Source of the DNA: Dictyophora rubrovolvata
Taxonomy: Eukaryota; Basidiomycota; Agaricomycetes; Phallales; Phallaceae
Assembly: GCA_029959195.1 (NCBI GenBank)
Contig: CP114120.1
Span: 186,001-250,000 of the forward strand
Direction: 5' to 3'
DNA: 64,000 nt
Part shown: piece after piece, positions 38,151-58,616 of the stretch
How positions within the stretch are numbered: position 1 is the first letter of the stretch
Layout of the letters: every line of letters begins with the position of its first letter
The notes under the pieces: generated by a model
The model's database searches: none
The model's input: only the letters and a program-made list of their open reading frames with translations
What the model was told of the DNA's origin: nothing
Made by a program: the position numbers and the translations under genes

Positions 38151-39845
38151 ATGAAACTATACCCTCCTGCCACTCGTCTTCCTTACGAGGTTTTTCGCCA
38201 AATAATGGTTTACACCTACAAGTACATCCCGCGGGCGCTGGAAATTGATGATGTAGAATTGGATCTACAACTTGTCTCGCCTCCCATAATAGCGTCGCAT
38301 GTTTGTCGCTCATGGAGATACGATCTTTTGTCAGATCCATCAATGTGGTCATTGCTTGTGATACCAAAAATCAAACCAAGCGGAGTACTGGAACTACTTC
38401 GACGATCTGATTCTGCCTTGCTGAACGTAATCCTCGTTTTGAGGAGTCACATCAAGGTGGATTATGACGATACGTCAAGCATGCTTTCCTCTCTTTTTTC
38501 GCAAATTCATCGATTCAAACTATTGAACGTAGAGGTTAATGTTAATGTTGACCTTGTGCCGAGCTCTTCGTCTAACTCTCGAGATTGTCTACATGGATTA
38601 ATCCAAAAGGTTTTGCTAGGTCTTCGTCGACCCGCGCCCAAACTACAAACGTTCCGCTTTTGGTATACTAATCCCGACCTCCGTCTCGAAGACACATTTC
38701 TGGACACGCTTTTCTCCAAAGATGCTCCCAATCTTAAACGCCTACGCCACAAACTTTCCAACGATTTTCGGGAGTTGAGTTGCCCTCTGTTCCGTGATCT
38801 TTCGGAGCTTTACCTTACTCTTCCTTACTCTTTGCCACTGAATTTCGACCGTTTCCTCGATCTTCTCGCTTTGTCGCCATGTCTCAAACTATTTCGCCTC
38901 TGTGCCGCTCGGAACAGACTTGTGTGGCCATCATCCTCCGACTCTTCCACCTCTGACCACAAAATCAATTTGCCACACCTAGAAAGGCTCGTTCTCGAGG
39001 TGAACACCGCTGTCGATTTGTTACCTTCGATTTTGGAGCACGTTGTCATTCCCTCGAATTTTAAATGGCATTTTGATCTTCAATACCGACTGGACTTAAC
39101 TGCGGACTCGCCATTATTATCCCAACTACTATTCAAAGCGCACTTCACGTCCCTCCGTATCACGTTTACCGAAGATGACTTTATTTACGTGTCCTTTCAG
39201 GAGAACCGTGACCGGCACTATATCAATCAATTCAATGATAATACACTCATGTATTCGCATCAGGAAACAGCGGAGGTGTTATCTCTCTGGGACCCGCTGA
39301 TGCAGTCTATCAGTGCATCTTTTATCACACACTTAGACATTGAAGTCGAAGGTACTTTGGAACACACAACACTCCCAACGATTTTCGCGTCGTTACGGAA
39401 TTTAACTTTCCTATCTATCAAACAAAAGTATTCAATAGACTTTGATGATGTCGAACCGTGCGTTTTGTGCTTATCGGCCTTAACACCGAGCCTGGACCAG
39501 TCCGAGGCCTTGAACCACAATATGAATCATATGCAGGGTTCCGAATTGATTTTATTACCCCAGGGCTTTGGAGGTATACCCTATAATTCCAATTCCCCAA
39601 AGATATCCACCACTTCAGAGCTACCATGTCCACTTCTACGCAAACTAACAGTGGAGCTGTCAGAAAGCCGATTCAACAAGACACATGCCTCCTTGGTCCG
39701 TGCATGTTGTGACCGCCGACGGGAGGCGGGATATCCATTACAAATATCTGTCCGTTGCCCCAAAATGGAAAAAGGCGTCGAGTCTGTTCTGCAGTTGAAC
39801 AACTGCAGTGCTATTGTCGTTTCAATTATTCCGCGCTACTATTGA
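38151..39845 (+). CDS. F-box protein, family B, intact copy (B1)
   Basis: Single exon. The F-box region is TRLPYEVFRQIMVYTYKYIP, then IIASHVCRSWRYDLLSDPSMW, the usual mushroom variant in which the F-box helices end in CRSWR. A leucine-rich region of about 450 residues follows, with strands such as LERLVLEVN, HLDIEVEG and LLRKLTVEL, a typical substrate-recruiting fold. The start at 38151 is preferred over the upstream in-frame codon because the TATA box at 38100 would leave too little leader otherwise. A paralog (57053-58616) and a short relic (50230-50453) share this architecture. Confidence 0.75.
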   Translation: MKLYPPATRLPYEVFRQIMVYTYKYIPRALEIDDVELDLQLVSPPIIASHVCRSWRYDLLSDPSMWSLLVIPKIKPSGVLELLRRSDSALLNVILVLRSHIKVDYDDTSSMLSSLFSQIHRFKLLNVEVNVNVDLVPSSSSNSRDCLHGLIQKVLLGLRRPAPKLQTFRFWYTNPDLRLEDTFLDTLFSKDAPNLKRLRHKLSNDFRELSCPLFRDLSELYLTLPYSLPLNFDRFLDLLALSPCLKLFRLCAARNRLVWPSSSDSSTSDHKINLPHLERLVLEVNTAVDLLPSILEHVVIPSNFKWHFDLQYRLDLTADSPLLSQLLFKAHFTSLRITFTEDDFIYVSFQENRDRHYINQFNDNTLMYSHQETAEVLSLWDPLMQSISASFITHLDIEVEGTLEHTTLPTIFASLRNLTFLSIKQKYSIDFDDVEPCVLCLSALTPSLDQSEALNHNMNHMQGSELILLPQGFGGIPYNSNSPKISTTSELPCPLLRKLTVELSESRFNKTHASLVRACCDRRREAGYPLQISVRCPKMEKGVESVLQLNNCSAIVVSIIPRYY

Positions 39846-40490
39846 CAGTCTGTGGTCAACGCAGCTGTAACGTTTACGATTCTGGATCCCGACGAAGTTA
39901 TTATTGGTCTGGCTAGCGTTGGTAATGCTTTCGATTGTAATGATGTTATGAAGTATATTATAAGGACTTGTGACCAAGCTTCACCGATTGTCGATTACCC
40001 TCCAGTAGACGGCTGCTTCTCCCTGTGTCGTTTGAATCATTTTAACCGTCAAAAACACGTAGGCGGTTGCAAGTGAATTTTATTTTTTCCCTAAACGATT
40101 TTTAAAAACCTTTTAATTCAATACAAATATGAAAGTAAATAGATATAAATGCATACATTGATTCGTCCCAAAGTTTACTCAAGATCATGATGGTGACGCT
40201 CAGGCTCAGGCGGCAGCGGCGACGTACAATGCGTCTTTATCATCGCTCTCGCTGAATAGTGTGTCTTTGATTGTTTATATATCGTTAGTACATTTAGAAG
40301 CCATATTACTCAATCTATGTATATTCCAAATAGCCCTTTCATTGCGTTGAGGAGTGAAAACCGAGCCGGTTAATTGTCTTCGTGTCCGTCTGTTATATTT
40401 ATGTGCCACTGTTTTCACTTACAATCACGACAAAACACCACTAAAATAGTAAATCCCTATCATACATTCTTATTTGACATGAGGTCGACT
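39846..40490. other. intergenic between convergent genes
   Basis: 3' flanks of F-box B1 (+) and the aldo-keto reductase (-). Plus-strand frame 39852-40076 is open but has no motif. I see no other feature. Confidence 0.4.
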
Positions 40491-41931
40491 TAAGATGCGT
40501 TTCGCGCACCGGCTAATAAAGCGGTGGAAACAAGTAAGGAAACAGCAGCGAGAACAATCAAAGAAAAAATCCTGATCCTGTATCTACTAGTAGAATCCAC
40601 CTTCGGAAAGACGTCTTCAGCCTCTTCGCTGAACATGAAGAATGAATCCGGACCTTTCTCGCCTTTTGCGCCGGCTTCATCGATTTCGGAGATCTCTTCG
40701 GCCGTCAGTTCTACACGGACGTAAATACGAATACGGGGTGAAATGTGTCAACAAAGGGGAAGGTTTGTGTACACACCTATATCTCCAGCCTTAATGTAGC
40801 CTTCCAAGCGGGAGGACTTGGAACTCGATCTACAAAATGCTATTTTAGGATGTATATGGATGGGAGGCGTTTTAGTACATACGTCAGGACGATGGATCCT
40901 TTGGCTTTGTTCCACGCAAGCAAAATCTGGTCATATGATGCGCCAGTGCGCTTGGAGATCTTTTCCAAGGGGACATCGACTGGTCCACCCGAACGTTGCG
41001 TGACGGGACTGAGAACAGATGGGTTTACTGGAGTAATATGAGAAAGAACTGGACAAGACACACATAAGAGGACTGTAAGCTTCGATGGCAATACCCTTTT
41101 TGCGACAAAAATCAATAATCGGTTTTTGAGTTGCATAAACGTATGGGTGCAGATGAATCTAGAGAATTAAACGATTTAAATATGAAAGGAAAGTTGAGAG
41201 GTTGATAGTGTTACCTGGTTGACTGCAGGGACAATTTTGGCATCTTTAAGGAGAACCTTGAGTTCGGAGACATTGAAGTTGCTGACACCAATATTTCTGA
41301 AACACGCCATGTGAGTTTCGTTTTTGAAAGTGACTGATTGATGGTGTTACGCACTTGGCAAGACCGTCCGCTTTGATTTTTTCAAATTTTTTCCACGCTT
41401 CAGGGATAGTATCACCTCTAAGCACGGGAGGACCATGGATCAGATAGAGATCAACCGATTTGACGCCAAGCTGCACAGAAAGAACCCAGAAGCTCGGGTC
41501 ATGAACGTAGAGGTAACAGTTTCAACGAACATTGTTAACAGAGTCTTTGATTGATTCTTCTATGCTTTTCTTGCCTGAGAATTTGGTTGTGAGCCATATG
41601 GAAGATCGGGACGAGCCAATTTCTCTAAGAGCTTGACCCGTTTGGAGCTCATTGGTGTAGTTTTGGGCCGTATCTGTTACGCTGTTAGGAGAAGAGGCTG
41701 AACGAGGTTACTAAGTAAGATCATACCTATGTGGCTGAAACCGGCCTCAACAGCTTGCGTGAGTTGCCTCAAAGTATCAGATTGCGGGATTTTCCATGTT
41801 CCAAACCCAATACTAGGTATAACATCACCTAATTCAGCAAGAAAAAGAAATCAGCTCTCGTCCGTCCGTTATGTGGTAATTTTTTGAAAGTGTTATATAC
41901 CCGAGTTCAGCTTAACGTCAGTCCAAGGCAT
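40491..41931 (-). CDS. aldo-keto reductase with C-terminal membrane anchor
   Basis: NAD(P)H-dependent carbonyl reductase. The spliced product starts MPWTDVKLNSG, then IPSIGFGTWKIP. The catalytic tetrad is visible: the Asp and Tyr in DTAQNYTNE, the Lys in WLTTKFSG and the His in LYLIHGP. Next come NIGVSNFNVSELK, the NQIHLHPY segment and AYSPL; SIVLTSS gives the cofactor-binding end. Exons are short and lie between about 41931 and 40491. After the barrel the protein continues ELTAEEISEIDEAG, then a basic residue group and a hydrophobic segment IFSLIVLAAVSLLVSTALLAG before the stop. That is unusual for the family and suggests tail anchoring. An in-frame extension upstream to about 42204 has a basic, hydrophobic presequence-like character, but I prefer the ATG at 41931. 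Confidence 0.78.
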
Positions 41932-42659
41932 TTTGTTTGCAAAAGGCTTTGATTGTATGGATTTGGCAAAAGGAAACAGAGAGAAAAAACCTAACCAGCT
42001 TTTTGCGATAACGAGGGAAGAAAGTTCAACATAACGGCCGCAGCCGGTGATTGCGTCAATAGTATTGGGTGTGACAGCGGTCTGTAACGCGTAACGCTGT
42101 ACACGTGTCAAAACTCTCACACGGGAACTCGACAGAAAGTTCAAGTTTCTCTCCCAGAAAGCTGCCAGGTTAGTTGAAGGTCTGATAAGATTGGTAATCG
42201 ACAATGTGTTTTTGTTGATGGGCGGTGGTGCACCCTGGAGAAGTTGGCTTCAAGGGGTCGGTCGCGTTGTGTGCACGATTGGTGCACAACGGTAGTAGGT
42301 ACTACGTAATAAAATTCTGTTTTGAAAAAACTGACAAAATTGACAAGCGTTGCGACGACTAGAGGGCCCATAGTTCATAATGAGGCTTGGTACAAATGAT
42401 AGCCTCCTAGACTTTTTTCGATTTCGGTGAGAAGGGTGACATCTTCCGTGAGGGCGGCAAGAAATGCACGTGCTACCTACATGGCGATAAAACATTAGAT
42501 ACAAGTCAAGGGCAGTAGTGTCAAGGTACATTTGAATGTAATCCAGAATACTGCCAGCGGATCATCTGCGCCATTCTGATCATTTCAGTTAATATATTGA
42601 CCAGTCACCATGTGCTCGGGTTCCACATACATAGGTTGCTCCGAGCTACGGCCCTATAT

Positions 42660-43680
42660 CAACCTAGCACCGATATAACAGATGGATGCTTCTGGCACTT
42701 TTTTGTTCGCACATGCACTTAAAGGACAAACACACGCTGCTGTTCCCCAATACGAGCCAGTTCCTCCAAATCGATAGCAAAACTCATGTTTAAAGCAATA
42801 TTTCGAGCACTTCTTTCATACGCATCTGTTTTAAACTTCTCACGAGAGGTCGACTATATTTGGAGAAAATCATTTAAGCTCACAACACTTCTTTATTTGT
42901 TTACGCGGTATGGGGTTATCGTAATATCTAGGACTACCTTTGGCTGAGGAGTTTCTTTTGAATGACCTGAATGTTGAGCAGTAAGACTCATCTTTGAAAA
43001 GCTTAGTTGTCAGATGTACAGAATTATAAAAATTTGTAAAGGATTTGCTATATCGTCGTCGACGCTGTCGAGATTTTTTATATCTTGGGTTACATCGAGG
43101 TTCAAGGTATTTTCCTTCTTGCTCGGGGATATGCATGTCCTTCGTTAGGTTTGTTGATTACTCGAACGTATGCACTCTGCTGGGCCCGCGCTTCAAGCTT
43201 CATCCCCGAATGGCTCAAATCATGTTATACTGCGTTCTTGGACTTCTTTTTCTTTTTAGGACTATCTCTCGACATTTATGGTAAACATTTTAGGCCGCTG
43301 TTTTTTCTTGATCTCACAAGCAATACATATTTTTATTTATTCTCAGGCATTTATCAAAATTTCCAAGCTGTTCAAATGATGACTCCGCCACCTGTATATG
43401 TAAGCCATCCTGATGGATCATGAAGGGCTTCAGGTGTCGTCTGAAGGCGAGGATATTGGTAATTTTTCTGATGTCTAAGGAAATGAGATGGACTTCTCCG
43501 GAACGCAACGAGTCCGTTCCGGGGTGGTTTGATCAACGTACATATTTACATGGTAGGCTACAGAATCTGGTTAGATATTATGTACTCCAACGCATGTTTT
43601 TTTTACAGCTGATAGACCAGTTCGAAAACAGTTATTTGACTAAATTTAGCGTTCGTTGTTAGGCCCACGCATGTCCGCAA
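42660..43680 (+). pseudogene. DUF6533-type membrane protein, degenerate copy 1
   Basis: Recognisable pieces in order: LLSYASVLNFSREVDYIWR with LTTLLYLFTRYGVIVI, IVVDAVEIFYILGYIEVQ, then GLLITRTYALCWARASSFIP. This is the DUF6533 block (W...RY...R.YAL) of mushroom integral membrane proteins. Compared with copies 2 (45.7-47.4 kb) and 3 (51.2-52.9 kb), the frame is lost after the RY motif near 42930, and no intact start exon or C-terminal LSALLL...FTL.VREC block is found. I infer a pseudogene. Confidence 0.55.
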
Positions 43681-44079
43681 ATTATAAATCGGCGGGATTC
43701 GGTGCGGCCATAATATGGAAGCGAGCCTCTTGTGGCTTCGACTAGCCAGTAATGCAGTGTTTTCGGCTATAATGATAACGCAAGCAAACTGGAAACGTCT
43801 TGGGGTACATGTTGTTCTGGTTGCCTACGCACTTGGCTCAAAGAATCAACAGTACATAAGCTGTCGACTTGATGAATGAAGCTTGATTTTAAAGTGTGGT
43901 TGCTAATTTTTTCGCCAATGCATTATATATAAGAAAGGTAGATTCTGATCGTGTAATGTTACCGCTGTCTGCTACCTTAACAATATCGTTTTGTTCCGAC
44001 GGAATCTGTCAATATTCGGACTTGAAGACAACTTGTTAATCGTGATTATACAACCGGGAGGACCACAGCTACTTTTAGC

Positions 44080-44563
44080 CTAAACTATTTTCAGCTCGGG
44101 TGAGATATTGCTAGAAAACTGATACTTCACATTCATGATATTACCATTGTCAGGGCTTGCAACCCTGATTTCGAAAAGATAAGTGATATATTATCCATAG
44201 CTACCAGTAAACGTTCATAGCTCACTTGAAACCATTACTGTCTGAGCCGGTAATGACCCAAGGAAAAGGCGTGTTGCTGAACGGGGGATTACCGCTTCGA
44301 GAATAATTTCCAGTGCCAACGTTCTGGATTTGATATGTATATGTATTTGAATTTGATTCGGGATTAAAAGGTTTGATACGCCACTATAAAATGACTACAT
44401 AAACATTAAGGGTCAAGTCAAGTGGCAGTAAACAAGCCTGTTGTGTAGGATCTTGTGAATCTTTGGCGGTAAGGATAATCCCGTTAGGTCCAGCAGCGAT
44501 GGAATTGTTGGTTCCTCTGCCAGAGACGGACATGAGATAAACACCGTTAAACCTGGGTGACAT
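44080..44563 (-). CDS. small beta-trefoil-like protein (copy 1)
   Basis: About 122 residues: MSPRFNGVYLMSVSGRGTNN, then a join to WRIKPFNPES with TYQIQNVGTGNYSR and FPWVITGSD, then KVASPDNGNIMNVKYQF to the stop at 44080. The pattern of short strands with a Trp (xWxI, YxIxNV) repeated about every 45 residues is that of ricin-B-type/mycocypin beta-trefoils common in mushrooms. These bind sugars or inhibit proteases. It is shorter than the usual 140-150 residues, so the last repeat may be partial, and the first splice junction is uncertain. No signal peptide is seen, so it would be cytosolic. A second copy is at 53.3-53.9 kb. Confidence 0.5.
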
Positions 44564-45179
44564 GGATGGCACTGGCAGGAGGACTACGGATTACTACTGG
44601 AGAAAACCTCAGACGGTGTTTTTATAGGATTTAAATGCTCACTGCAATTCCATAACGAATCAACTATTGCTTATTTGTTGTCTCTGTCTGGTCTTTGTTC
44701 AGTAAATGACATTGAAGCTCGGAGTCTCGGACGCCGGTCAACCGGTCGTCACATAGTCACATGGCGCGCGCGCAGGCCAAGTTTGCTAAGCCAGACTCTG
44801 CCAGAGGACAACCAGACAGTCCAGACTCCAGATTCCGACAGAGGATCGGCGCGGCGACATTACTTGAGATTGACCGACATGTCCTAACTCCTGAAAGAGC
44901 TTCAACCTCATCTCCTAGCTTGGAACTTAAAAAACTAATCAGATCACGTTGCCCGACGACAAGGCACCCGCGTAAGCACATTCATGTCTGGTGTTCACGT
45001 TCAAGCAAGCTATATCACTGACAAATAGACTGTCACTTAGGAGGAGCAATCAGATCAGTATCAATCTCTTGTTGATGACGAGGTCGAATAACGCTCAACG
45101 TTCGAGTTCAAATACATTTAAAGCGGCGGCAAGCCTTAAGCCTGTCGATGTTCCCCTGGGATTTTGATGGAAAATATTA

Positions 45180-45505
45180 CCTTTTAGAGCTAGAGAAACA
45201 AACCTGCGAAAGACGGGTCCTTGGACGGGTTATTTTTGTGGCTGATGCAATCGTGTGCGCCCTGAACGCTGTTTCGACATCAAAGACGTCTTCCCCATAA
45301 GGCGACCACTGGAATTTCCGTAGTCTGATGCCTAACACTAATGTACATGTGGATCCATCAGATGTAAAAATCGACTCTGCCCCAAAGCGATATATTGTCG
45401 AGTCAGGCACTCAACAGAGTCAACACGCACAAGCACGAGATTATTGATGTCACGACTGCGGAGGTCACTGGTCTTTAAATCATTTGTAAGGAGCTCGAGT
45501 CTCAT
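45180..45505 (-). CDS. possible DUF6593-like small protein
   Basis: The start MRLELLTNDLKTSDLRSRD with VLVRVDS resembles the opening of DUF6593 proteins, a mushroom family of unknown function. It continues in another frame with DSTIYRFGAESIFTSDGSTC, then VLGIRLRKFQW and ETAFRAHTIA, also in family order. The two parts are not cleanly joined by a canonical intron, so this may be a broken gene. Assignment is tentative. Confidence 0.35.
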
Positions 45506-45738
45506 CCGGATCCTATCGCGTACTAATACCAACGTCAGCTGCGATGGCCGTAATTGTACAACCAATGTCAAACATTTCGGGTTTGAAATGGAATAACGGC
45601 GTGATACATATTCGTGACTAGCGTGGTGCGTGAGGTTCTAACGCGCCCTAAGTGAACAGACAGATACATATAAAATCAGTTTGACGGGAAGATAAAAGTA
45701 ACACCTCCAAACTTATGCATCCGTCCTTTATATCAAAC

Positions 45739-47351
45739 ATGAGCAATGCAACAACTACCGCAATTATCATTCAGGGCTATTATTTGAAGTATGTATTTCA
45801 ATTTTACATTTTCCCCGTTGACACTAATTGATGGGCAGCGATATTTACATCATGGCCCTGGTCTGCAATATAAGTGAGTTGTCCAAAGCAAGTTTAATAA
45901 CTAAAGAAATATTTTCAGCACTCCTTTCGTACACTTCTTTCCTGAATCTTTCACGAGAGATTAATTACATTTGGAAAAAACCACTCAAGCCTCCAACATT
46001 GTTTTACATTTTAACAAGATATGCGACTATTATATATCTCGCAATGACTTTGGCTGAGATTTTGTTTACAGATGATGTTGTAAGTTGAACGTTTTCTAGA
46101 AGTCTCAAAGCAACACTAATACCCTATAGCCAAAAAGGTAAGGGGATAAAAGACGCTCAGTCATTGGGTGGACTCGAACTGAAAAAGTAAAGGACTTGCG
46201 ATATCGTCGTCGACGCTATTGATGTTTTTACTATTTTGGGTTACATCGGCGTCCAAGGTCTATCCCTTTTTTTGCTTTCGAAAGTAGTTGACCCATGATT
46301 TTTTCCAGGTTTGCTAATCACTCGAGCGCACGCACTCTGTCGAGCGTGTTCACTTCCTGATTGGCTCAAAATTATATTTTACTGTATCATGGCTTTGTTT
46401 TTCTTCTCAGGGTTATCTATAGACCTCTATGGTGGAGATTTTCAAGTTGTTCCTTGGTGACATATGCAAACGACCTTCCTATTTTTTAGCCGTAATACGT
46501 TTTGGCGGCTGTCCAGACTACACCAGCAGGTCAGTTTATTCTATAAGTCAAATCATTCTAGATATATTCTGTCTTCTACGCGAACCCATATAATTCTGTT
46601 TCTAGTGGTAATTTATCTTCCATCAATCTCTATTATCAATCTCTAATTCATCTACAGAAACACCAGGGGATGTGAACCTAATTATTCTCCTTGGAGATAC
46701 ATGTGTTTTCGTGACCGATTTTCTCGTCTTCGCCATGAGCCTGTATTGCTTTTGGGACATCTGGCAATTCAGTGTTCAAAGAGGAAACAACCTTACGTTC
46801 ATAGTTTTTAATGAAAGTGAGTTTCACACCTTGTTAAATAGTTCGGATGACCTTATCCGTAACTATCAGTGATATCAAGATTTTCGTGAGTACATGAGAC
46901 ACCCATTTTTCGGAAAACCATTCATCTCAGCTTGATCGGAAGGTTTGCCGTTGTTATTATCTTCGTCCTTACGATCGTATCACAAGTGCGTCCAAATAAC
47001 TTGATGTTGATTTGTCAATATTCAATCTGTCCTATACTAGTTTGTAGAAAAAGTGAGTTTTCTTTCGACGTCAAATACTAATCGCTAAACTCGAGCCAGT
47101 CGCCCGTTTTTACTGCTTTTCAAAACGGGTAAAAACCACTTTACCCCTTATTTCAAAAGAATTGACTTCTCATTTCTCGATTTCCTAGTTTATCAGCACT
47201 ACTTCTTACGGAGTTTACTTTGAATGTTCGCGAATGTCATTTTGCTCAAGGTTACAGTAAAGATAATATCTCATTTGTATTATCTGCCATGCGCTTCAGT
47301 CGCATCGAACCACCATCCGAACCATCTACCAATCAACTTGAAGGCAGGTGA
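45739..47351 (+). CDS. DUF6533-type membrane protein, copy 2
   Basis: Start MSNATTTAIIIQGYYL, then exons giving NDIYIMALVCNI, TLLSYTSFLNLSREINYIWK and PTLFYILTRYATIIYLAMTL. After these come DIVVDAIDVFTILGYIGVQ and GLLITRAHALCRACSLPDWL, then FFFSGLSIDLYG. Later LIILLGDTCVFVTDFLVF and SLYCFWDIWQFSVQRGN, and the C-terminal SALLLTEFTLNVRECHF reaching a stop at 47351. About seven spans; the RY and YAL/RAC positions are the DUF6533 signature. Function unknown. A TATAAAA at about 45669 precedes it. Not every central junction (about 46090-46190, 46450-46670) was resolved, so small defects are possible. Confidence 0.55.
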
Positions 47352-48012: not shown

Positions 48013-49659
48013 ATGAATCCTATCTTCGGGACACGCGATTATCTGGACGAAATTTTCTTTTGGCTGTCGAGTCGCGATTTAGCGGCCACTATTTGTGTCA
48101 ACAAGGCTTGGTTCCGAGCTTCTGTATTTCCATTGTGGAGGACAATCAATCTATCAGTGGCGTTGAAACTCCTGGGACCAATTGTACAGTTGACAGAAGA
48201 CGTGTTTTATGTGAGATTTACATACGTCCAAAATCGTATTGCCTTTTCTCTCTAAACCCTTCAAAACCAGAGTTTTTCAGAGATGTCTTCCTCGAAGAAT
48301 TGGGAGCGATTTATGGTGTATGCCCAACATGTTCGTGTTCTGCACGCAGATGATACAGACTCCTTCGCCCTTGCTACGGCGATAGTTTATACGCCATCTT
48401 CACTCGCAAACGAATTCAAATATTTTTTCCCAAATTGCCGGTATCTCAGTTGGCATACAAGCACCACACAAATTCCAGCCGATATTTGTGAGGTTTTGCT
48501 GCCACCTAGTCTCGATCACGTTGTGCTTACTGGGAGGGCTATTAATCGTGAATGGTTAGCTGGACTCTGTCAGCTACTGGTTGCCAGATTGCCCACTCTC
48601 AGTGTTTTCCACATCGATTGCGAGAGTTTTCTGGTACCTTTGGAATCCCCATCGTTTATCAGCCTTTTGACAACGTTTTCATCGACTTTGACATATATCT
48701 GTATTCCTGAAATTTTATTTACAGACATTACACTGCTGAAGCTTCTCGAATGCGACTTACACCATATGACGGCCTCACGACCTTCATGGACGCCGATGGG
48801 TTTGACGAGAGAGTATGCTGATCGTAATGGCGGGAAGTTTTTTCTCTCTCTCAAATCTCTTACCTTGGGCCCGCTTACATCCAGTTTCCTCGTATTAAAT
48901 ATCTTTGATCGCTCTTTTCCGTCGCTTACGAAATTCTGCTGGGATACCTACGACATAAACTTTGATTTCGATACCTTCGTCATGGCAATTTCCACGGCTG
49001 CTCCCAATCTCGAGATATTGAGTTTGGGGGTTTGGGGATTTATGAATGACCTGGACGTTTCGTGGTCCTCGTTCAGGTGGCTTTTAAACCGGGTAAAGCT
49101 TACTTCTTTGTCGATACATTGTGTCCGAGTGGACATGACCCTGGACAATCTGATCCAGCTCTTGAGAAGTCGACAAGAGCCCTCGAGTTGGCACGTACTG
49201 GAAATCACAAGCACACAGCCTTTTCATTTCCAAGACGCTTTGCTGTCGGTCGCAAAATACTCACCAAAAATCCATACACTCTGTCTTCGTGTGCACGACC
49301 AAAATTTTGTACGGCTGTACACCGATATACCCGAGTTGTCTTCGCGGCTGATACCTCGCCACGCAAAGAAAAATAATATTCGGACTCAAGTCGAATTAAG
49401 AGGTCGACTCAAACAAGCAGGGTTCTTCCTTCCTTGCATCTCAATTATCCGACTCAATCAAAGTATCTGTTCCCTTGATTCCATAGGACCGGTTGCTTTT
49501 CTTATTTTGGCCCTTTGTGACTTGGACCAACTGCAGGATTTTATTGCGGACGATGAAGATCTGGGATTTCGCATCGGCTGTCGGATAACAAAATATCACA
49601 ATGCAACCCGGAAATTCGGACATATCCCAGGACCCCGCCGAAGATTCTTCCGACATTAG
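48013..49659 (+). CDS. F-box protein, family A, copy 1
   Basis: Two exons, 48013-48210 and about 48271-49659, with a phase-0 intron. The F-box is RDYLDEIFFWLSSRDLAATI followed by CVNKAWFRASVFPLWRTI at residues 8-45. A leucine-rich region runs from about residue 80 to the end: NCRYLSWHTS, LDHVVLTGRAI, LTYICIPEILF, LEILSLGVWGF, LTSLSIHCVRV. Family A has no obvious sequence relation to family B next door beyond the general F-box-plus-repeat plan. An inverted paralog at 54612-56233 is similar over its whole length, with long identical blocks such as NNIRTQ and LTSLSIHC. Likely SCF substrate adaptor. Confidence 0.75.
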
Positions 49660-50162
49660 TTCCGTGATTATACCCTGAAATCATCCATTGAATATGTGTT
49701 CTGCATAATAATTATAAGATTCTGTTCCTTCCCTTTGAAAATAATATTACTCTAGTACATTTCTATATTTCCTTCTGTTTTAGCTCGTTGTACTAGTTAC
49801 TTGTCCTAAATATCAATATACATAGAAGTCTTCTAGATCGCTTGGTTGCATGTTCGATGGCGTAAATAGTAGCAGGCGACTGGTTTCCCTTTATGTATTT
49901 GGCGGGTGCAAATAAGTCGAATCCCTCAGCAATATGATTCAGAACATCTGGAGACACACGCTAGTGGATGATCGGATCGACCCTCTTTTATCTTCTAGCC
50001 TGATAAAACGAGGCGGTTTTGTAAGGGTCTGAAACTTACAAAAAGCTGACAGAGATTCTAATTCATAGGACGTCCCTATGAACACTAGATTGTAAGACGT
50101 TGAAGTTGAACTTGGGCGTTATTGTTCGGAGTCAAGCGGGGTGACATGGAGTGACATGGTAG

Positions 50163-50180
50163 GTACACGTAAGCAACTGT
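50163..50180 (+). repeat. 18-nt element shared upstream of family-B F-box copies
   Basis: The string GTACACGTAAGCAACTGT is identical at 56967-56984, each 67-86 bases before the family-B start codon. It is a leftover of the duplicated promoter. ACACGT could be a factor-binding core, but that is inference. Confidence 0.6.
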
Positions 50181-50229
50181 TGCGTCTCAAACTCAAAAAC
50201 TTCCTTCGCGCCGCCAACACACCACTAGA

Positions 50230-50453
50230 ATGTTCAGCATGTCCGCGTTCAGTAATTCTGCGATTCTTGAAGGAATGAGATGTTCTATACCGGAATCGGA
50301 GGGATACAATGAACCCGAATCAGACCTCCAAGTCATTCGCTCCGGTAATCGCACACTCCTGCCTGGCCCGATAGTGTTGGTGTGTCTTTCAATCCCAGAT
50401 ATGAAGCGCGATGGGATAATACAATTGCTTCGAAGATCTAGTTTTTTCTTATA
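50230..50453 (+). pseudogene. F-box family B relic
   Basis: The start MFSMSAFSNSA parallels MFSQMNLNSAV of the copy at 57053. Further on, CLSIPDMKRDGIIQLLRRS parallels CLLIPQMKPDGILELLRRS. The intervening F-box is scrambled and the frame stops at 50453. This is the short remnant of a once complete gene, with its promoter element still upstream. Confidence 0.6.
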
Positions 50454-51242
50454 AGCGTTTATCTCAAACTTATGTGTCTCAATGATCATAAGCCCAAGAT
50501 CTATGGCGATAATTCAAATGTGCTTTCCAATAGATCTATCAGTTTAAGGTAATGCTGCTGCTATTGCACCTCCAGACCGATTGTACTTCGGGCTATCTTT
50601 TGATCACCATCCTTACTTCAGCTTATGTCCGCCGCAAGTGCCACATACTACTGTCAAGGCCTGGAGAAACATCACGCGATTGATTTTGGTAGACAGTGTC
50701 AAGGGTCGACAAAATATAGATCACGAAAATTGTCAGCGCAGTGTAAGCAACACTGTTTTCCTTTTTTTCTGCCCCGGTACCTAGCTACTTTTTATATAAT
50801 ACACGATTTCTTGCCTTTTCTGCTCTTCAGTTCTCCTATTCTCCTATTCCTGCTAGCTCCAACAGTTCGTCGGGCCAAGCGTTACAACACCGCCAGCTTG
50901 GACGGACTTCATTCAAGTTGAGCTGCCTTTGTGCCAACGCTCCTTGTTCTTTTCCGCAGCTCTTGCCCTGAAAAAACCCGATCATGGAACTGCCGTCGGT
51001 GTTAGACTTCGCTTGAGGTATTCAATGGTGCCGGTGACATTGGTTTCCCTGACACTGATGTGCCTAACGTGCGCGTGACTACTGAGTTGTCTTAATCGTC
51101 CGGTCTATCGTGTGCGATAATACACGGTTGGCAACTTGTACCAACCTCAGTGTGCCTTGAGGTGCGGACAGGTTTTACAGGTATAAAAAATCGTATGTTA
51201 GGAGGTCAATAAAATGTTCTCCCTTAAAGCGTAAACAGCAGC
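50454..51242. other. intergenic, TATA box before DUF6533 copy 3
   Basis: Plus-strand frames at 50581-50784 and 50625-50921 have no recognisable motif and no splice partner. TATAAAAA at 51182-51189 lies 54-61 bases upstream of the start at 51243. Confidence 0.4.
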
Positions 51243-52886
51243 ATGAATAGCAGCGTGAACAACAACAATGCGGCTAGCATTATCATCCGAGAAGAATATC
51301 AAAAGTATGTATTTGCCGCATTTCCATCTCAATATGAAGCTGAGCATACCATTGATTTAGCTATATCTACACTCTGACCCTCATTTCCAATATAAGTGAG
51401 TTGCTCAAGATTAATGATGTGAATTCATGGCTCAAATTATTTTTTAAGCGCTCCTCTTTTATACTTCCCTTTTGAGCATGTCACGGGAGAGGGATTATAT
51501 CTGGAAGAAGCCATTCAAAATTACCACTGTGCTTTACATGTTTACAAGATACATGACTATGATGAATCAAGTGTCATATTTTGCTATAGACGTTTACCCC
51601 TCCTCTATAGTCAGTTAAGCATTTCTTTTTAGTTTCGTTGCCATCGGCCATCAGTTAAGTAATCAATTCCTTATAGCCAATACGGTAAGACCAAAGCTCC
51701 ATGTTTGTGCGGTTCTTATAAAATAGCAAAGAACCTGCGATTTTATTTTCAATACAATGCATATTTTAACACTCTTGACGTACATCGGGGATCAAGGTTG
51801 GACCATTTCAATTAGTTCTCGACCAAGCCTTTAATTCATCATCCTAGGATTACTGATTGCTCGAGCGTATGCACTCTGTCAAGCGTGTAATCTTGGTCGA
51901 TGGTGTAAATTTATGATCACTGGCTCTTTGGCTCTGAGTTTCTTTGGGGGTTTATTTTTTGAGCTTTTTGGTGAATCTTTCCGACCTTTAACTGCATTCA
52001 CAATTATACAAACATTTTCATTCTTAGTCGCGATACGATTTGGTGGATGTTTATATATTGATATGTTAGTATATTAAGCTATATACTCCCTTTTTTCAAA
52101 GCTGAATCATTCCGTATCAAACCCCCTTTTCAGAGGTACAGTATACTAACGCTTCCATGATATTTTTCCCAACTTATTTAATTTTCAGGCGACGAAGCCC
52201 TATTCATTCTTCTCGGGAATGGATGTGTTCTCCTGACCGATGTTTTGGTATTTCTTACATGCCTCTATTACTTCTGGAACGGGTGGAGATCGTTCCGAAT
52301 TGAGAGAAATAACGCTCTCGCGTCTTTGCTTTTTAGAGCAAGTGAGTGCTATTCAATAGTTTTGGTAGACAATGGTCCTTACCAGAAATTCTCAGCTATA
52401 TTAAGATTTTGGTGCGCAATATAAATAATAGTCGATTCTTTTAGACAAAGCGATCTGACCTGACCTGTCCCACGAAGTTTTGCCCTTGTTATTATCCTTA
52501 CTCTTGAAATCGTTGCAGTACGTTCAATATTCTAACGTTACGTTAATGTACTTATGATTCAATGTTATGAATTCAATCAGCTTGTAACTATACACCAGGT
52601 GAGTACCTCTAGAACATGCAGTTCATACCGATCACTAAATTTGGGACGTAGCCTCTAGACATCGCCGCTTTTCAAAACAGGTAAAACCGTACTTGATTTA
52701 GATTCGGAACTAACTTCTCACCTCTCGAGCCTTAGTCTATCAGCGATTTTGATTGCCGAGTTTACCCTAGATATTCGTGAATGCGAAAACGATTCCGCCG
52801 ATGGTCATCTTGATATCAGTATATCATCTGGGATAATGTTTGCTTCTCACAACTTGTCGAACAATGCCTCTCTTACGATTGAATAA
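51243..52886 (+). CDS. DUF6533-type membrane protein, copy 3
   Basis: MNSSVNNNNAASIIIREEYQ joins by a phase-2 intron to NYIYTLTLISNI. Then TLLFYTSLLSMSRERDYIWK and TTVLYMFTRYMTMMN follow, then a block near 51750 and GLLIARAYALCQACNLG. Next are LALSFFGGLFFELFG, LLGNGCVLLTDVLVFLTCLY, LRFW and the C-terminal SAILIAEFTLDIRECEND, ending SLTIE at 52886. Domain order equals copy 2. The C-terminus is longer and Asp/Ser-rich. Spans about seven. Central junctions (51600-51700, 52070-52190) are only approximate. Confidence 0.55.
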
Positions 52887-53289
52887 ACTCGAGTATTTAA
52901 ATATAATATGGTTGGAATTTCGATGAAAATGAAACAGGGGCTTTTGAATTCTCACTCAACCAGTTTGTTTATGAGCATATGCGGTGATGCAAGAAGCTGA
53001 GGATCCTGCTCTGCACTGACAGCATGTAAATAGATATTTAACCCACTGCATATTTTTATTGACTTTCTCGACCAATTTTTGCATTGTTCATCCTCAAATA
53101 CAGGTATATAACTCCAATATGTATGCGGAATACGTCGACATTTATCCAATTGCCCAACCCAGGCCACCGAAAATCTGAACTTTTCTTCAACTTTCGTGGA
53201 AGACCATAGGGAAATGAATACCTTACCCCCTGCATACACTTACATGATTAATCGCATCTTTTAATTTTGATCAAAGCTGTAGGGGAATT

Positions 53290-53865
53290 AAACCTACCCA
53301 AGGATTGCTCGACATTGGTTGGGTTTGGAGGCTGATGCACTGAACTTCTTTAATCCTAATCAAAAGCTATTGGAAATTCAAACTTACCGCTCCATCAGAG
53401 TACCAATAATAGAGCTGAGTTCCGCTTCCTGAACTCATTCTGATTTTGAGGAAAACAATCAATAATATTTTGATATGTCCTGCCAGTGCAAATAGACCCT
53501 TATGGCTCACAGATATTCGTTTGGAGTCTGGGGATTGACGACTATATTCCAGACAAAGGCCCCGGGGGTATCGCTGAACACGATCGATGTCCATTGGGAA
53601 TTGGGAACAAGATATTGTCCTGCTATGTAGCTCTTAATTTGACACATGCTTGATCCCTGTGCTGTGGGCTGAATAATCCACTGTAAAAAAATAATTAGGT
53701 ATACTACATCGGGACGTGGGGAACCTCGACGAACAAACAAACCTTTTGTCCGTCTGAGTTTGGCGGGCTTAAAGTGGGCCCAAGTCCACCGGCATCGGTT
53801 ACAACACTGTTCGACGTGCCCTGCCTAGTTGAGGTAATAATGCGAGTACCTTCTGGGATGCTCAT
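53290..53865 (-). CDS. small beta-trefoil-like protein (copy 2)
   Basis: Exon 53865-53743 encodes MSIPEGTRIITSTRQGTSN through NSDGQK; the next begins WIIQPTAQGSSMCQIKSY. It continues with QYLVPNSQWTSIVFSDTPGA, VWNIVVNPQTPNEYL and, after another intron, MSSGSGTQLYYWYSDGA. The 3' exon (about 53290-53340) contains PPNPTNVEQ in one frame. The W...I strand repeats fit a ricin-B/mycocypin-like beta-trefoil, as in copy 1 at 44.1-44.6 kb, and the MSxPxGTxxI start is usual for mushroom cytosolic defence lectins and inhibitors. The 3' end is uncertain. Confidence 0.5.
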
Positions 53866-54355
53866 GATTTGTCTCGTGTAGATAAATTTTAATGGAGAGC
53901 TGATGCTCGCAGCTTAGGGTAAGGTGTCTTTTATGTCTGTAAAAAAACGTATTGTGAATAATAAGATGGTGTGAAGATAAAGTTTATGAAGTTCCTTTTT
54001 CCATCATTAGGAACAAGGGCGATCGATTTATCATCATAAGCTATCGCTTGCGGCGGATTTGCCCCGTGTAGTGGCTTTTTAAATTATCGGCGGTTCTTCG
54101 CTTGTTTGGCAATTAGTGCCAGAAAAATACGCTTCCTCAAGCACATTTCCGTCTCAAAGTATCACGCTAAATGGAAAACTCATGACACCTCGAAGTCAAC
54201 CTTATCTGCTATAAAAAAACATTTTACGCTCCTCTAGGAGACACTGTAGTCATCGATGGCGATTCAGAATCACTTGCATCAGACTCATTCCGCTGCCGGC
54301 GAAACCGCAAAAGCGCCTCTACTTCTTACCAAACAGCTTGATCACTCTCGGGACG

Positions 54356-54371
54356 TAGGGTTTAGGGTTAG
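54356..54371. repeat. telomere-like hexamer run
   Basis: TAGGGTTTAGGGTTAG on the + strand, two to three imperfect TTAGGG units, lies 240 bases left of the inverted F-box A copy. It is too short to call an interstitial telomere, but it is paired with the next entry. Confidence 0.5.
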
Positions 54372-54611
54372 CTAGAAAACATCATTCGTCTTTTCTGGTC
54401 GTTCAAGTTTCTGGCTAAGTTTGCGCAGAGTCGCGCTCTGGGAAAAGGGAGGCTCATGCGTCTTCGAAAGACAATTCGATCTGATCATTTTGTACATCCA
54501 CTATTGCATCTAAAAACCTTTTACTTCCCTCATAGACACTTCTATTTACACTCTCAGACCCACGCCGCACATTTACGCTGGTCCCCTGGTTTACCCTCTT
54601 GCTCCCGCCCA

Positions 54612-56233
54612 TCAGTCGGTGAGATTCAGGATCGCGTAATAGTATTTTTTCATCCGACAACGGATGCGGTATTCCAGACCCAAATCGTCCACAACGAGTC
54701 TCTTCATCTTCATTGCGTCACAGATCGCCAAAATAAGAAACGCAATTGGACCTATTGATTCAAGACTACATACGCTGTCATGTAACCTCAAAGAGGAGAG
54801 ACTAGAAAGCGAGAACCCCGATTTCTTAAGTTGATCTACAAGCTTCAATTGAGTCCGAATATTATTTTTCTTTGCGTGGCGGGGTATCAGCTGCGAAGAC
54901 AACTCCGGTATTTCGTTGAACAGATTTGCATAGTTTTTGTCATGCACACTAAGACCAAGTAAATGAATTTTGGGGGAATATTTGGCAACAGAGAGTAAAG
55001 CATCTTGGAAATGAAGGGGCTGAGTGCTTGTGATTTCCAATACATGCCAACTCAACGGCCCTTGTCGACTTCTCAGAAGCTGGACCAGATTGTCCAGGGT
55101 CATGTCCACTCGGGCGCAATGTATCGACAAAGAAGTAAGCTTTACGCAGTTTAGAAGTCGCCTTACTGAGATCCACGAGACCTCCATGTCCTTCACGGAG
55201 CAAAAAACTCCCAAAATTAATATCTCGAGATTTGGAGCAACACTGGAAATTGCCATGGCGAAGACATCGAAGTCGAAGTCTACGTTGTAAATACTCCAAT
55301 GAAACTTCGTAAGTGCCGGGAGAGGGAAACGTATCATCCTCAATGCGAGAGATTTGGAGGTAAACGGGCCAAAGATGAGGGATTTCAGAGACGAAAAACG
55401 CTTTGGGCCTTTGGGATCAGCACGCTCTTGTATAAAGCCCAACGGCTCTTCGAGTCCTATGGATGATGATCGCGTGACCATCAAGTGGTGCAAGTCGCAT
55501 TCGAGGAGCTTCGCCAGAGTCACATCTGTAAAGAGCCTTTCGGGGATCCAGACATACGTCAGAGTGGATGAAAACGTTGTCAAAAGGCTGAGAAACGAGT
55601 CCGAGCATTGCAATGGTGCAATAAAGCCATCGTAATCAACACGGAAAACGCTGAGACTTGGTAGACTGGAGGACATTAGTTGACAAAATTTATCAAACCA
55701 ATTTGGGTCAATAGCTCCCCCAGTGAGTACAATATGATCAACACTGGGTGGTAGTAAAACCTCAAGCATTGTGGCTTTAACTTGTGCGGTTGTCGTGTGC
55801 CAATTGAGAAAACGGCAGCCTGGGAAGAAATATTTGAGCTCATTCTTCAGTGAAGGTGGCTTAGAAATTATGGCAGTAGCAAGAGTGAGGGAGTCAGTTC
55901 CGTGCGCGTGCAGAACGCGAACATGTTGCGCGTATATCATAAATCGCTTCCAATTGTCTACGCAAGTGAGATCTGGAAGTTTCTGATTATCGAAGTTAGA
56001 TATAAATCAGTATAATAATATCAGACGTCATAGCTCACAAAGATTCCTTTGTGAATTTGTCTAGCTGGAATCAGGAGTTTCAACGCCACTGATAGATCGA
56101 TTATTTTCCACAAGGGAAATACAGAAGCTTCGAACCAAGTTTTGTTGACACAAATGGTGGCCGCTAGATCGCGATCCGAGAGGCAGGAGAAGATCTCGTC
56201 CAGATAATCACGGTGTTTAAAGATTTGATGCAT
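54612..56233 (-). CDS. F-box protein, family A, inverted copy
   Basis: Two exons, 56233-56039 and about 55982-54612, phase-0 intron at the same place as in the copy at 48.0 kb. The F-box is RDYLDEIFSCLSDRDLAATI, then CVNKTWFEASVFPLW. The leucine-rich part keeps FFPGCRFLNWHT, VDHIVLTGGAID, LTYVWIPERLF, LEILILGVFCS, LTSLSIHCARVDMTLDNL and NNIRTQLKL. Substitutions are spread along the protein while the frame is fully open. That implies selection since duplication, though this was not measured. Orientation is opposite to the other copy. It ends 40 residues before the other copy's C-terminal basic tail. Confidence 0.75.
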
Positions 56234-56892
56234 GACAAGTGAGTTCGAGGCGGGATGGCAAAGGCAACTTTAATAACCGCAAGAGCAAAGTGGGGGAATT
56301 CACAGAAAAAAATGAGGTGAAATAGGTTTATATTATAAAAGGGCCTGTCCATGATTGTGTCACATTATTCGGACAGTTCCAGTAAGTTAATTGCAAACGG
56401 ACGGCTGTCAAAGGACGAGACGGTCAACTATGGGTCTGGGGGTATTATTTTGGTCAACGGTTAATTGCCTGTCATGGTAAGATTCGTTTATGAGATTGGG
56501 CGCTGATGAAGTCAGATTCAACTTTGATCTTATACCCTTGCCCTATCTGCTGATTTGAAATGGGGTTACTTGGAAGTAGAACACGAATAACGCGGTTCGA
56601 TCGACGGAGCGATGAAGCTACACAGGGGTGGGAATTCCGCAGTGAAATTTGCATAGTATGTAAAAAATAAAACTTCTCTCAAAATTCTCAAGCCTAAATA
56701 ACAGTTTAAAGAGGATAGCAGCTAAGGCAGCCATGATCACAAAGAGAAATTATATATTTATAGTAGTCCGCGCATAGCCTTGCATTAATGCGCTTTGCAC
56801 GAAAGACTCGGAAAGAGTGTTGGAATATTCTAGCTTTGGGCTTGCCGTGGTAACAATATGATATGAACACAAGCAAACTACATCTAGTCATT

Positions 56893-56918
56893 AAACCCTA
56901 AAATCTGAACCCTAAACC
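56893..56918. repeat. telomere-like hexamer run, inverted relative to the one at 54356
   Basis: AAACCCTAAAATCTGAACCC and then TAAACC: imperfect CCCTAA units on the + strand, so opposite in direction to the TTAGGG units at 54356. The two runs bracket the inverted F-box A copy. Confidence 0.5.
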
Positions 56919-56966
56919 TGGGGTACGCTGGCAAGTGGAATTTTCCGAAGACCTTGGTGGTACTCC

Positions 56967-56984
56967 GTACACGTAAGCAACTGT
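56967..56984 (+). repeat. 18-nt element upstream of F-box B2
   Basis: Identical to 50163-50180 (GTACACGTAAGCAACTGT). See that entry. Confidence 0.6.
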
Positions 56985-57052
56985 AAATATGGCCGACTCT
57001 TGCCGACGCTAGTATTTTTCTACACCCGTGTGTCGAACACTTCAAACACTAA

Positions 57053-58616
57053 ATGTTCAGCCAAATGAACTTGAATTCAGCTGTGCGTTTTCCCTACGAT
57101 GTTTTGAGGGAGATAGTACTCCACGCTCATATATACACATTCAAACCGGGGCGCGACGATCCCAATATACTTTTACAACTGCCATCGCCACCCATAGTTG
57201 CTTCACACGTATGTCGATCGTGGAGATATTCTCTTCTATCCGACACATCAATGTGGACATGCCTCTTGATCCCACAAATGAAACCAGACGGAATACTGGA
57301 GCTCCTTCGTCGATCCGGGTCAGCTCCACTCAACGTATTTCTTAAACTGGAGCACTCTCGCGAGCTGGAACATGAAAACGTGTCACACATGCTGTTCTCC
57401 CTTTTCCAGCAGATTCATCGATTCAGGCTGTTGTACGTTTATGTTTACCCTTGCATCCTGGTACCCTACATCCATCGATTCGGCAAGTATTGCGATACCT
57501 TCAGCGACCCGCGCCGGAACTGTTCTTCTTCTCATATTCCAATATCGATCTTCCTCTCGAAGACACATTCATAGATACTCTATTTTCAGGAGATGCGCCC
57601 AATCTGAAGCACATGCTACATCATGGACCTTCCATTGACTTCCGCGAATTACGCTGTCCTCTCTTCCATAACCTGTCAGAGCTTTCCTTCACTTTAGATC
57701 ATTCGATGAACATAGATTTTGGTCTCCTTCTCGATCTTCTCGCGTTATCTCCTCGGCTGAGGCTGCTGTATCTTCATATCGATCATTATTATGATAATGT
57801 CTGTGTATCCTTCGAACGCTTTACTGGACGCACGGTCAACTTACCATACATGCAAAGGCTTGTGCTTGAGGTGAACCGCCCAGCTGAATTGGTGAACTTG
57901 ATCTTGGAACACGTAACGCTTCCCTTAAATCTCAAGTGGCGTATCACCTCCCAACATGTATCTGAATTCGCGAATTCACCAGCCTTACTTCAATGTCTAT
58001 CTCAAGCCCGCTTTATATCCCAGCATATTCGATTAAATGTTGAAGATTTTGCACTGGTATCGTTCGAAGAAGAACCAGGTCCAAGCCATATCAATCAATT
58101 CAACCACAACAAGCTCATGTTTATGTTTGAAGACCTACTGGATTTAATAGGTTCCTGGGACTCATTGATGCACTCTATCGAGCCGTCTCGCATTACTCAC
58201 CTGAATCTTGTATTCCTCGAATGGCTTGAATCGGGGAATAATATAGCCATTCCAACAATTCTTACGTCAATGACAAATCTGGAGACTCTAGACATCACAG
58301 AAAATGAGGTGTTGGGTAACAAAAAAACATTCTTGTATTGCCTGTCGATATTACTACCAGGACAAACTCTTGCACCGGACTGGTCCGACTGGATTCCCAT
58401 TAATACAGACAATACCTCCATAACGCCTTCATTTCCTTCTCCCTTTTTACGCGAGATAACTATCAAAATGAAACACTTGTTGGAAGAAATCGAAGCGGTC
58501 ATGATTCGGAAGTGTTCGGAAAAACGACGAGAGGGAGGATATCCTTTACGAATACTCGCCCATTGCCCCCGGAATAGAGGAACCCGTCGACTCTATACTG
58601 CAGTTGCAGGAGAATA
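57053..58616 (+). pseudogene. F-box protein, family B, copy B2 with apparent frameshift
   Basis: The 5' part reads MFSQMNLNSAVRFPYDVLRE, then IVASHVCRSWRYSLLSDTSMW and GILELLRRSGSAPLNVFL, parallel to B1 at 38151. Near 57450-57500 the frame changes. The second part resumes RYLQRPAPEL, EDTFIDTLFSGDAPNLK, LLDLLALSPRLRLLYL, PYMQRLVLEVN, HINQFNHNKLMF and RREGGYPLRILAHCP to 58616, again parallel to B1 along its length. No canonical intron explains the shift, and a few residues present in B1 (a Ser-rich stretch) are missing there. So this is a young pseudogene, a two-piece gene or a sequence error. Confidence 0.6.

Follow-up and report, generated by a model that had tools for sequence, protein, structure and literature searches.

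The gene field at 38-58.6 kb of the window, the 64-kb stretch of DNA analysed here, most probably marks the left margin of an extensive birth-and-death array of F-box B genes on this chromosome, C4, in which independent duplications of several ages have piled up; we assign this reading a probability of roughly 0.78. F-box A, DUF6533 and probably trefoil genes would have been copied locally long ago, and one F-box B gene, along with a DUF6533 gene that points away from it, would belong to a much younger 3-kb segment common to C4 and C7. Later decay would have affected the DUF6533 genes at 37.1 and 42.7 kb, the F-box B gene at 50.2 kb and probably the one at 57.1 kb. The copying may have gone through ectopic recombination or break repair, in an array rich in repeats and close to a chromosome end; a search for the telomere pattern found none. 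The homology, positions, ages and decay of the copies are shown by the analysis. Since the copies differ in age and one of them has its twin on another chromosome, normal gene turnover in four ordinary families, in a neighbourhood that would have no joint function of its own, is favoured over the copying of a single block and over a dedicated recognition system.

An earlier note on this DNA had described four gene types, namely F-box A, F-box B, DUF6533 and beta-trefoil, as recurring in the field, which self-comparison, Pfam and protein alignment bear out. Comparison of the 64 kb with itself yielded eight non-self DNA matches at E<=1e-3, seven of which join genes named in that note. F-box A DNA at 48012-49613 matches 56234-54625 in inverted orientation at 72 %, F-box B DNA at 38266-39347 and 39705-39797 matches 57174-58215 (62 %) and 58513-58606 (71 %), respectively, and DUF6533 DNA matches between 45668-47236 and 51183-52783 (59 %) as well as between 42740-43341 and 45858-46487 (62 %), with two shorter matches besides between the genes at 42.7 and 51.2 kb. 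The trefoil genes gave no DNA match to each other at this threshold. The two F-box families are unrelated, no blastp match between them being better than E 0.9. As the gene finder overlooked the DUF6533 and trefoil genes with their short exons and recovered only part of the F-box A gene at 48.0 kb, models of these genes were drawn by hand from the reading frames. Genome searches were run exon by exon.

The F-box A pair comprises a two-exon gene on the plus strand (48013..49659, hand model) and an inverted two-exon copy of 521 codons on the minus strand (54612..56233, gene-finder model). Both are mutual best matches in the genome, with exon 2 of the 48.0-kb gene finding the 54.6-kb copy at 62 % and next C11:225177 at 47 %. 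Codons 281-340 of the pair reach 92 % protein identity. Gene conversion was considered as a cause of the closeness of the pair and rejected because the dS of this stretch, 0.64, resembles that of the rest, so that constraint accounts for the identity. The F-box labels of the window genes are themselves weak. The F-box-like profile matched exon 1 of the 48.0-kb gene at E 0.0012, the 54.6-kb gene at E 3.3e-5 to 0.0009 and the 57.1-kb gene at E 0.01; PF12937 stayed below its cut-off in these three window copies, of which the 54.6-kb one passed it, at 24.8 bits, when scored with neighbours in its frame. The F-box B gene at 38.2 kb was itself matched by none of the F-box families in Pfam and is not one of the 12 out of 17 F-box B proteins matching the F-box model at E<=0.1, and a profile of these 17 proteins found no solved-structure relative at E<=1.

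The DUF6533 genes proposed at 42.7, 45.7 and 51.2 kb, all on the plus strand, exceed the curated PF20151 cut-off of 24.1 bits. They are a degenerate gene (42723..43420, 40.5 bits), a membrane-protein gene with several short exons (45733..47270, hand model, 35.7 bits) and a further hand-modelled membrane-protein gene (51243..52886, 36.5 bits). The first two are nearest to one another, the 42.7-kb gene being the best genome match of the 45.7-kb gene at 50-58 %, and the 51.2-kb gene is nearest to the 45.7-kb gene when exon scores are summed. In protein alignment, the 45.7-kb gene shares 53.5 % of 114 codons with the 42.7-kb gene and 45.8 % of 166 codons with the 51.2-kb gene. Within the genome, the F-box A genes match one another best, and the same applies, though weakly, to the three DUF6533 genes. 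An old duplication in place is thus likely for F-box A, and the DUF6533 trio probably arose locally as well.

Assignment of the genes at 44.1 and 53.3 kb, both on the minus strand, to the beta-trefoil family also holds. The first part of the 44.1-kb gene (44225..44563), a ricin-type beta-trefoil gene, passes PF14200 (RicinB_lectin_2) with 28.7 bits against a cut-off of 25.6 when exons are joined by hand. The second, trefoil-like gene (53510..53865) matched no Pfam family and is kin by its alignment to the 44.1-kb gene, with a score of 64 compared to 29.9 (sd 6.0) for shuffles, reached by 1 of 1000. Searched against the genome, the 44.1-kb query at E<=1e-3 and the 53.3-kb query at E<=10 each recovered itself alone. 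There may be distant relatives of the trefoil genes, since neither query found the other gene and a genome search with the PF14200 profile failed to recover even the 44.1-kb gene of the window.

The F-box B gene at 38.2 kb (38151..39845, plus strand) is intact, as had been claimed, its frame being open over a single exon of 564 codons. Its twin lies on another chromosome at C7:191159-192838, with 85 % protein identity and a dS of 0.17-0.27, and by sequence divergence the segment carrying the two is much younger than the local F-box A and DUF6533 copies. This co-linear segment of about 3 kb, coding and non-coding, joins window positions 37140-40205 to C7:194577-190853 in inverted orientation, in three blastn pieces at 74-87 %. 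The main piece (38074..40205, 86 % over 2146 columns) covers coding DNA and the 3' flank of the interchromosomal duplicate, a non-coding flank (37287..37539) matches C7:193275-192994 at 74 %, and a remnant exon of a DUF6533 gene (37140..37275, minus strand), head-to-head with the F-box B gene, matches C7:194577-194442 at 87 %. The C7 side of this last piece encodes a DUF6533-type exon (score 47, shuffles 22.9, sd 4.5, reached by 1 of 2000), and about 1.15 kb with the DUF6533 domain (C7:193734-193856) is present in C7 and missing in the window at 37275/37287. The remnant at 37.14-37.28 kb was absent from the earlier note.

A transposable element that captured the F-box B-DUF6533 segment and moved it between C4 and C7 could also explain why a segment the size of a gene is found on two chromosomes and why 30 kb of C7 show no C4/C7 match beyond it, and the C4 array does contain integrase matches, at 317.9, 384.4 and 495.7 kb. 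The window itself, however, holds no integrase match, and a single C4/C7 pair of this kind was compared at the DNA level; we regard such a transfer as rather improbable.

Further F-box B copies fit the picture of decay to different degrees. The gene at 57.1 kb (57053..58614, plus strand) had been called broken, and its two matched pieces indeed lie in different frames; as the gene finder bridged the frame change with a putative 62-base intron, the break is likely, not proven. The relic at 50.2 kb is real (50263..50520, plus strand, about 60-87 codons; best tblastn match 50287-50439, E 9.6e-12) and is closest to C9:208864, with 53.5 bits in tblastn versus 37.7 bits for the 57.1-kb gene. Outside the field, another F-box B relic not mentioned earlier lies at 63107..63822 on the minus strand (tblastn E 6.7e-6 and 1.9e-4). 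A tree was built from 34 of the 42 F-box B places examined in DNA, namely those covering at least 250 residues, and was rooted for drawing only. It unites the 38.2-kb gene and C7 with a support of 100/100 and places the 57.1-kb gene outside a group of 25 with a support of 99/95. AU tests disfavour a clade uniting 38.2, C7 and 57.1 (p 0.011) as well as 38.2 and 57.1 as a pair (p 1e-53, mainly reflecting the C7 twin), and in this phylogeny the 57.1-kb gene is a lineage separate from 38.2/C7. Members of the family cluster on C4 and C9, and many of them are broken. On C4, 31 places were found in 186-420 kb, 12 of them open over their full length and 19 partial or interrupted; the array holds block duplications of about 80-95 % DNA identity, several of them inverted, and its description beyond 420 kb is based on match rows and four short stretches. 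This array supplies young duplicates that can be dated, which suits it to studies of the mechanism.

Block duplication followed by loss, as the earlier note had proposed, predicts similar divergence for linked pairs. Including the C4/C7 pair, dS gives at least three non-overlapping age classes, and the values within the field differ, with 0.59-0.93 for F-box A, 0.79-2.02 for the DUF6533 genes at 45.7 and 51.2 kb and at least 1.44 for the F-box B genes at 38.2 and 57.1 kb. The first two ranges overlap, so F-box A and this DUF6533 pair could share one event. Nine of ten non-coding comparisons in the field, including the F-box A intron region, were at chance and one was marginal (2/200 shuffles), with the C4/C7 non-coding flanks serving as positive controls (z 65 and 50). 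Since the intron region of F-box A, too, does not rise above chance, non-coding similarity would be gone at these ages anyway. The repeated gene order does occur twice as DUF6533-trefoil-F-box A-F-box B if the genes at 45.7 and 38.2 kb are left out of account, but with a chance of about 2-5 % it is suggestive only. That linked copies are mutual closest relatives is true for F-box A, weak for DUF6533 and untrue for F-box B.

Duplication and loss in general, and the local origin of F-box A, thus stand; a single block copied once is unsupported in view of the C7 twin, the separate position of the 57.1-kb gene and the unequal dS, and after tests by self-alignment, dS, tree and shuffled flanks it is retained solely as a rival. 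It would posit one old block of DUF6533, trefoil, F-box A and F-box B that was tandem-duplicated once, with F-box A then inverted, members lost and the 38.2-kb F-box B gene arriving later. The doubled order, the mutual best F-box A pair, the locally nearest DUF6533 copies, trefoil genes found nowhere else by the searches run, the overlapping dS ranges and the marginal non-coding pair are all compatible with this scenario. We nevertheless consider it unlikely, as the 45.7-kb DUF6533 gene is closer to the 42.7-kb than to the 51.2-kb copy, the 50.2-kb relic matches the C9 copy better than the 57.1-kb gene, one F-box A copy has the opposite orientation, the two trefoil genes show no alignment at the DNA level and the order may be due to chance. 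With piecemeal turnover preferred, the field offers a worked case of variable-gene-family turnover in a mushroom, where small events of several ages, one of them interchromosomal, can mimic one duplicated block by eye.

The note had further suggested that F-box adaptors next to putative binding and membrane proteins could make up a fast-evolving recognition module, for instance in defence or in telling self from non-self. Such a module would link a receptor, a binding protein and an F-box degrader. Constraint on the 38.2-kb F-box B gene and its C7 twin is uneven, with a dN/dS of 0.14 for codons 5-84, 0.62-0.67 for codons 85-204 and 0.82 for codons 406-485, a lectin-type gene is present in the field, and the DUF6533 protein Snowball acts in development according to PMC10949477. 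Yet dN/dS did not exceed 1 in any pair or F-box B window compared, several members are decayed, the trefoil genome searches did not place these genes next to other such genes, and DUF6533 and F-box genes are not co-located beyond chance genome-wide: 7 of 144 DUF6533 matches lie within 5 kb of an F-box gene (rotation mean 8.2), and 10 of 144 lie within 10 kb of F-box A or B alone (5.6 expected, P 0.11). This rotation test used hand-entered positions of 144 DUF6533 and 131 F-box-like rows (up to E 1) together with 16 F-box A places selected out of 19 match rows and 58 F-box B places selected out of 83, with the extents of C3, C5, C6 and C10 estimated. We consider such a module highly improbable. 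Barely credible is the variant in which the divergent DUF6533-F-box B pair moves as a unit between chromosome ends as receptor and degrader, its specificity renewed by exchange.

By family knowledge, the F-box proteins, variable at the C-terminus, would each act singly as an adaptor that brings substrates to SCF ubiquitin ligases. They resemble mushroom F-box families, as described in PMC8893723 and PMC12884345, in an N-terminal F-box-like region, a long divergent C-terminus and many paralogues, and differ in their concentration on C4 and C9, their many broken copies and the lack of a solved structure matching the profile. The 44.1-kb gene resembles fungal Ricin-B-type beta-trefoil lectins, mentioned in fruiting bodies in PMC10949477, in passing PF14200; here, two copies were detected, both in the field, and the 53.3-kb copy is unrecognised by Pfam. 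The DUF6533 proteins would be membrane proteins of a kind that includes Snowball (snb1), sharing the domain near the N-terminus and hydrophobic, multi-exon genes; PMC10949477 gives seven transmembrane helices and a plasma membrane location as a prediction for SNB1 only. Compared to the four snb1-family genes reported there for Coprinopsis cinerea, this genome holds at least 144 DUF6533 matches, counted as domain matches by exon with 150 of 217 candidates scored and not as an snb1 orthogroup. An extra DUF6533 HMM match, not listed in the earlier note, lies in the window at 32.2 kb.

The window (C4:186001-250000) comes from a genome of 28.2 Mb in 11 contigs, and a self-comparison of all 64 kb returned eight non-self matches at E≤1e-3, seven of which lie among the genes of the field at 38-58.6 kb. 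Self-comparison, reading frames, and profile and protein matches showed that the four recurring gene types described in the earlier note are present with their listed copies. F-box B occurs at 38.2 kb as an open frame of 564 codons, at 50.2 kb as a relic and at 57.1 kb, where the frame changes or a short intron has been gained; a gene-finder model joins up this frame shift as a short intron. F-box A lies at 48.0 kb and, inverted, at 54.6 kb, DUF6533 genes at 42.7, 45.7 and 51.2 kb, and trefoil-like genes at 44.1 and 53.3 kb. While this observation was a good one, the two readings attached to it, a single block duplication followed by loss and a joint recognition or defence module, exceed the data: the field reflects an ordinary turnover of variable families of genes where a large F-box array has its edge, and it includes one clear case of interchromosomal duplication.

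The F-box label itself is weak for the window copies: of the four longer ones, the 38.2-kb gene fails to match the Pfam F-box-like model and the other three do so below its cut-off; among F-box B proteins, 12 of 17 match at E≤0.1. Comparison of F-box A with F-box B revealed no relationship. The window also holds an F-box B relic at its right edge (63107-63822, minus strand), a DUF6533 domain match of 27.2 bits left of the field (32157-32294, plus strand), and pieces reading like an aldo/keto reductase (40843-42374, minus strand), one of three tested matching PF00248 with E 0.0047, below cut-off.

F-box B does not fit into a local block, since genome-wide the 38.2-kb gene has its best match at C7:191159-192838 (85%), ahead of the 57.1-kb copy (44% and 56% identity in two pieces). 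Gene and flanks match together, window 37140-40205 aligning inverted with C7:194577-190853 in three pieces of 74-87%. C7 carries about 1.15 kb of extra DNA, including a DUF6533 domain (C7:193734-193856), between the points matching window 37275 and 37287, and window 37540-38073 spans about 530 bases versus about 70 in C7. C7:194442-194577 encodes a DUF6533-type exon (score 47 against the 51.2-kb gene, shuffles 22.9, sd 4.5, reached by 1 of 2000; the score against the 45.7-kb gene was reached by 24 of 2000), so that the matching stretch, window 37140-37275, is a remnant of that gene. What identifies it is the DNA match with C7; in a direct comparison to the protein of the 45.7-kb gene, the frame around the remnant scores no better than chance (475 of 1000 shuffles do as well).

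A tree of 34 F-box B rows, rooted for drawing only, pairs the 38.2-kb and C7 genes with full support and leaves the 57.1-kb copy outside a group of 25 others (support 99/95). A forced pair of 38.2 and 57.1 was rejected with an AU p of 1e-53, chiefly an effect of the C7 twin; a fairer constraint, which joins all three in one clade, gave 0.011. F-box B genes at C2:200 kb, C7:191 kb, C8:179 kb and C9:209 kb, 178-209 kb from the contig start, group among C4 array genes in this tree. Within 500 kb of contig ends, 39% of the sequence with the sizes of four contigs estimated, lie 47 of 56 F-box B and 11 of 16 F-box A places. (TTAGGG)4 was not found in the whole genome; the pattern read backwards occurs six times, on one strand.

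Across the window and adjoining DNA (C4:186-420 kb) we counted 31 F-box B places, 12 open and full-length and 19 partial or interrupted. Further matches reach up to 561 kb and occur near 910 kb on C4, as well as on C9; for C4, in the match list the 38.2-kb gene is the leftmost F-box B on that contig. The array contains internal block duplications of about 80-95% identity, several inverted, and so the block copying pictured in the earlier note can be seen next door, at a younger age. C4:303206-309097 and 335803-341611 form a direct segmental duplication of 94.5% and 86% identity, and repeats of about 405 bases near C4 315.5, 316.0, 326.6, 369.6 and 370.4 kb possibly represent solo long terminal repeats.

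The F-box A copies are mutual best matches at 62%, the next best (47%) being on C11. The best match of the 45.7-kb DUF6533 gene is that at 42.7 kb; the 51.2-kb gene is closest to 45.7 by hand-summed exon scores, although the score of its domain exon, taken singly, is equalled by other members of the family. Each trefoil query recovered itself alone in the genome (one at E≤1e-3, the other at E≤10); as neither search recovers the other window copy, this shows close relatives to be rare and does not establish the pair as nearest kin. A further RicinB_lectin_2 match, on C6, came from a search that missed the window's own split gene. In F-box A (window 48256-49656), codons 281-340 are strongly constrained (dN 0.04, dS 0.64) within an otherwise variable C-terminus, and codons 281-320 hold the most invariant columns among five paralogues (14 of 40).

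Codon comparisons gave 95% bootstrap ranges of dS of 0.17-0.27 for the C4/C7 F-box B pair, 0.59-0.93 for F-box A, 0.79-2.02 for DUF6533 45.7/51.2, 0.66-2.40 for 42.7/45.7, at least 1.2 for 42.7/51.2 and at least 1.44 for F-box B 38.2/57.1. On these ranges the F-box A and DUF6533 45.7/51.2 duplications could be one event, and both F-box B pairs are of other ages. Nine of ten non-coding pairs picked as the block model predicts were at chance level, 50452-51160 versus 58618-59290 being marginal (2 of 200 shuffles), whereas C4/C7 controls were far above chance. Because the F-box A intron region, one of the ten, is also at chance, missing non-coding similarity is no argument against a block this old. 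The order DUF6533-trefoil-F-box A-F-box B would occur twice by chance in 2.1% of cases with three DUF6533 genes and in 4.7% with all ten members.

As for the module, we found no adjacency of DUF6533 and F-box genes above chance genome-wide, rotating one gene set along the contigs as expectation: 7 of 144 DUF6533 genes lie within 5 kb of an F-box (rotation mean 8.2), or 4 of 140 versus 7.7 when the four window genes are left out. For F-box A and B alone the counts were 5 of 144 versus 3.2 at 5 kb (P 0.24) and 10 of 144 versus 5.6 at 10 kb (P 0.11). No pair or codon window compared had a dN/dS above 1. Between 38.2 and its C7 twin it is 0.14 in codons 5-84, 0.62-0.67 in 85-204 and at most 0.82 in 406-485, and five other recent F-box B pairs gave 0.24-0.63, a pattern in keeping with relaxed or mildly diversifying change in the region outside the F-box. 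A role of these proteins as SCF adaptors is suggested by their family. In Coprinopsis cinerea, the DUF6533 protein SNB1 is described as having seven predicted membrane helices and as required for fruiting-body patterning, its mechanism left open by the authors (PMC10949477), and development-linked groups in mushrooms are reported to include ubiquitin-ligase genes, F-box genes among them (PMC8893723, PMC12884345). Such studies are leads on single genes and no evidence of a joint module. A separate DUF6533 expansion is seen on C7, where 49 of the 144 scored matches lie on 2.43 of 28.2 Mb.
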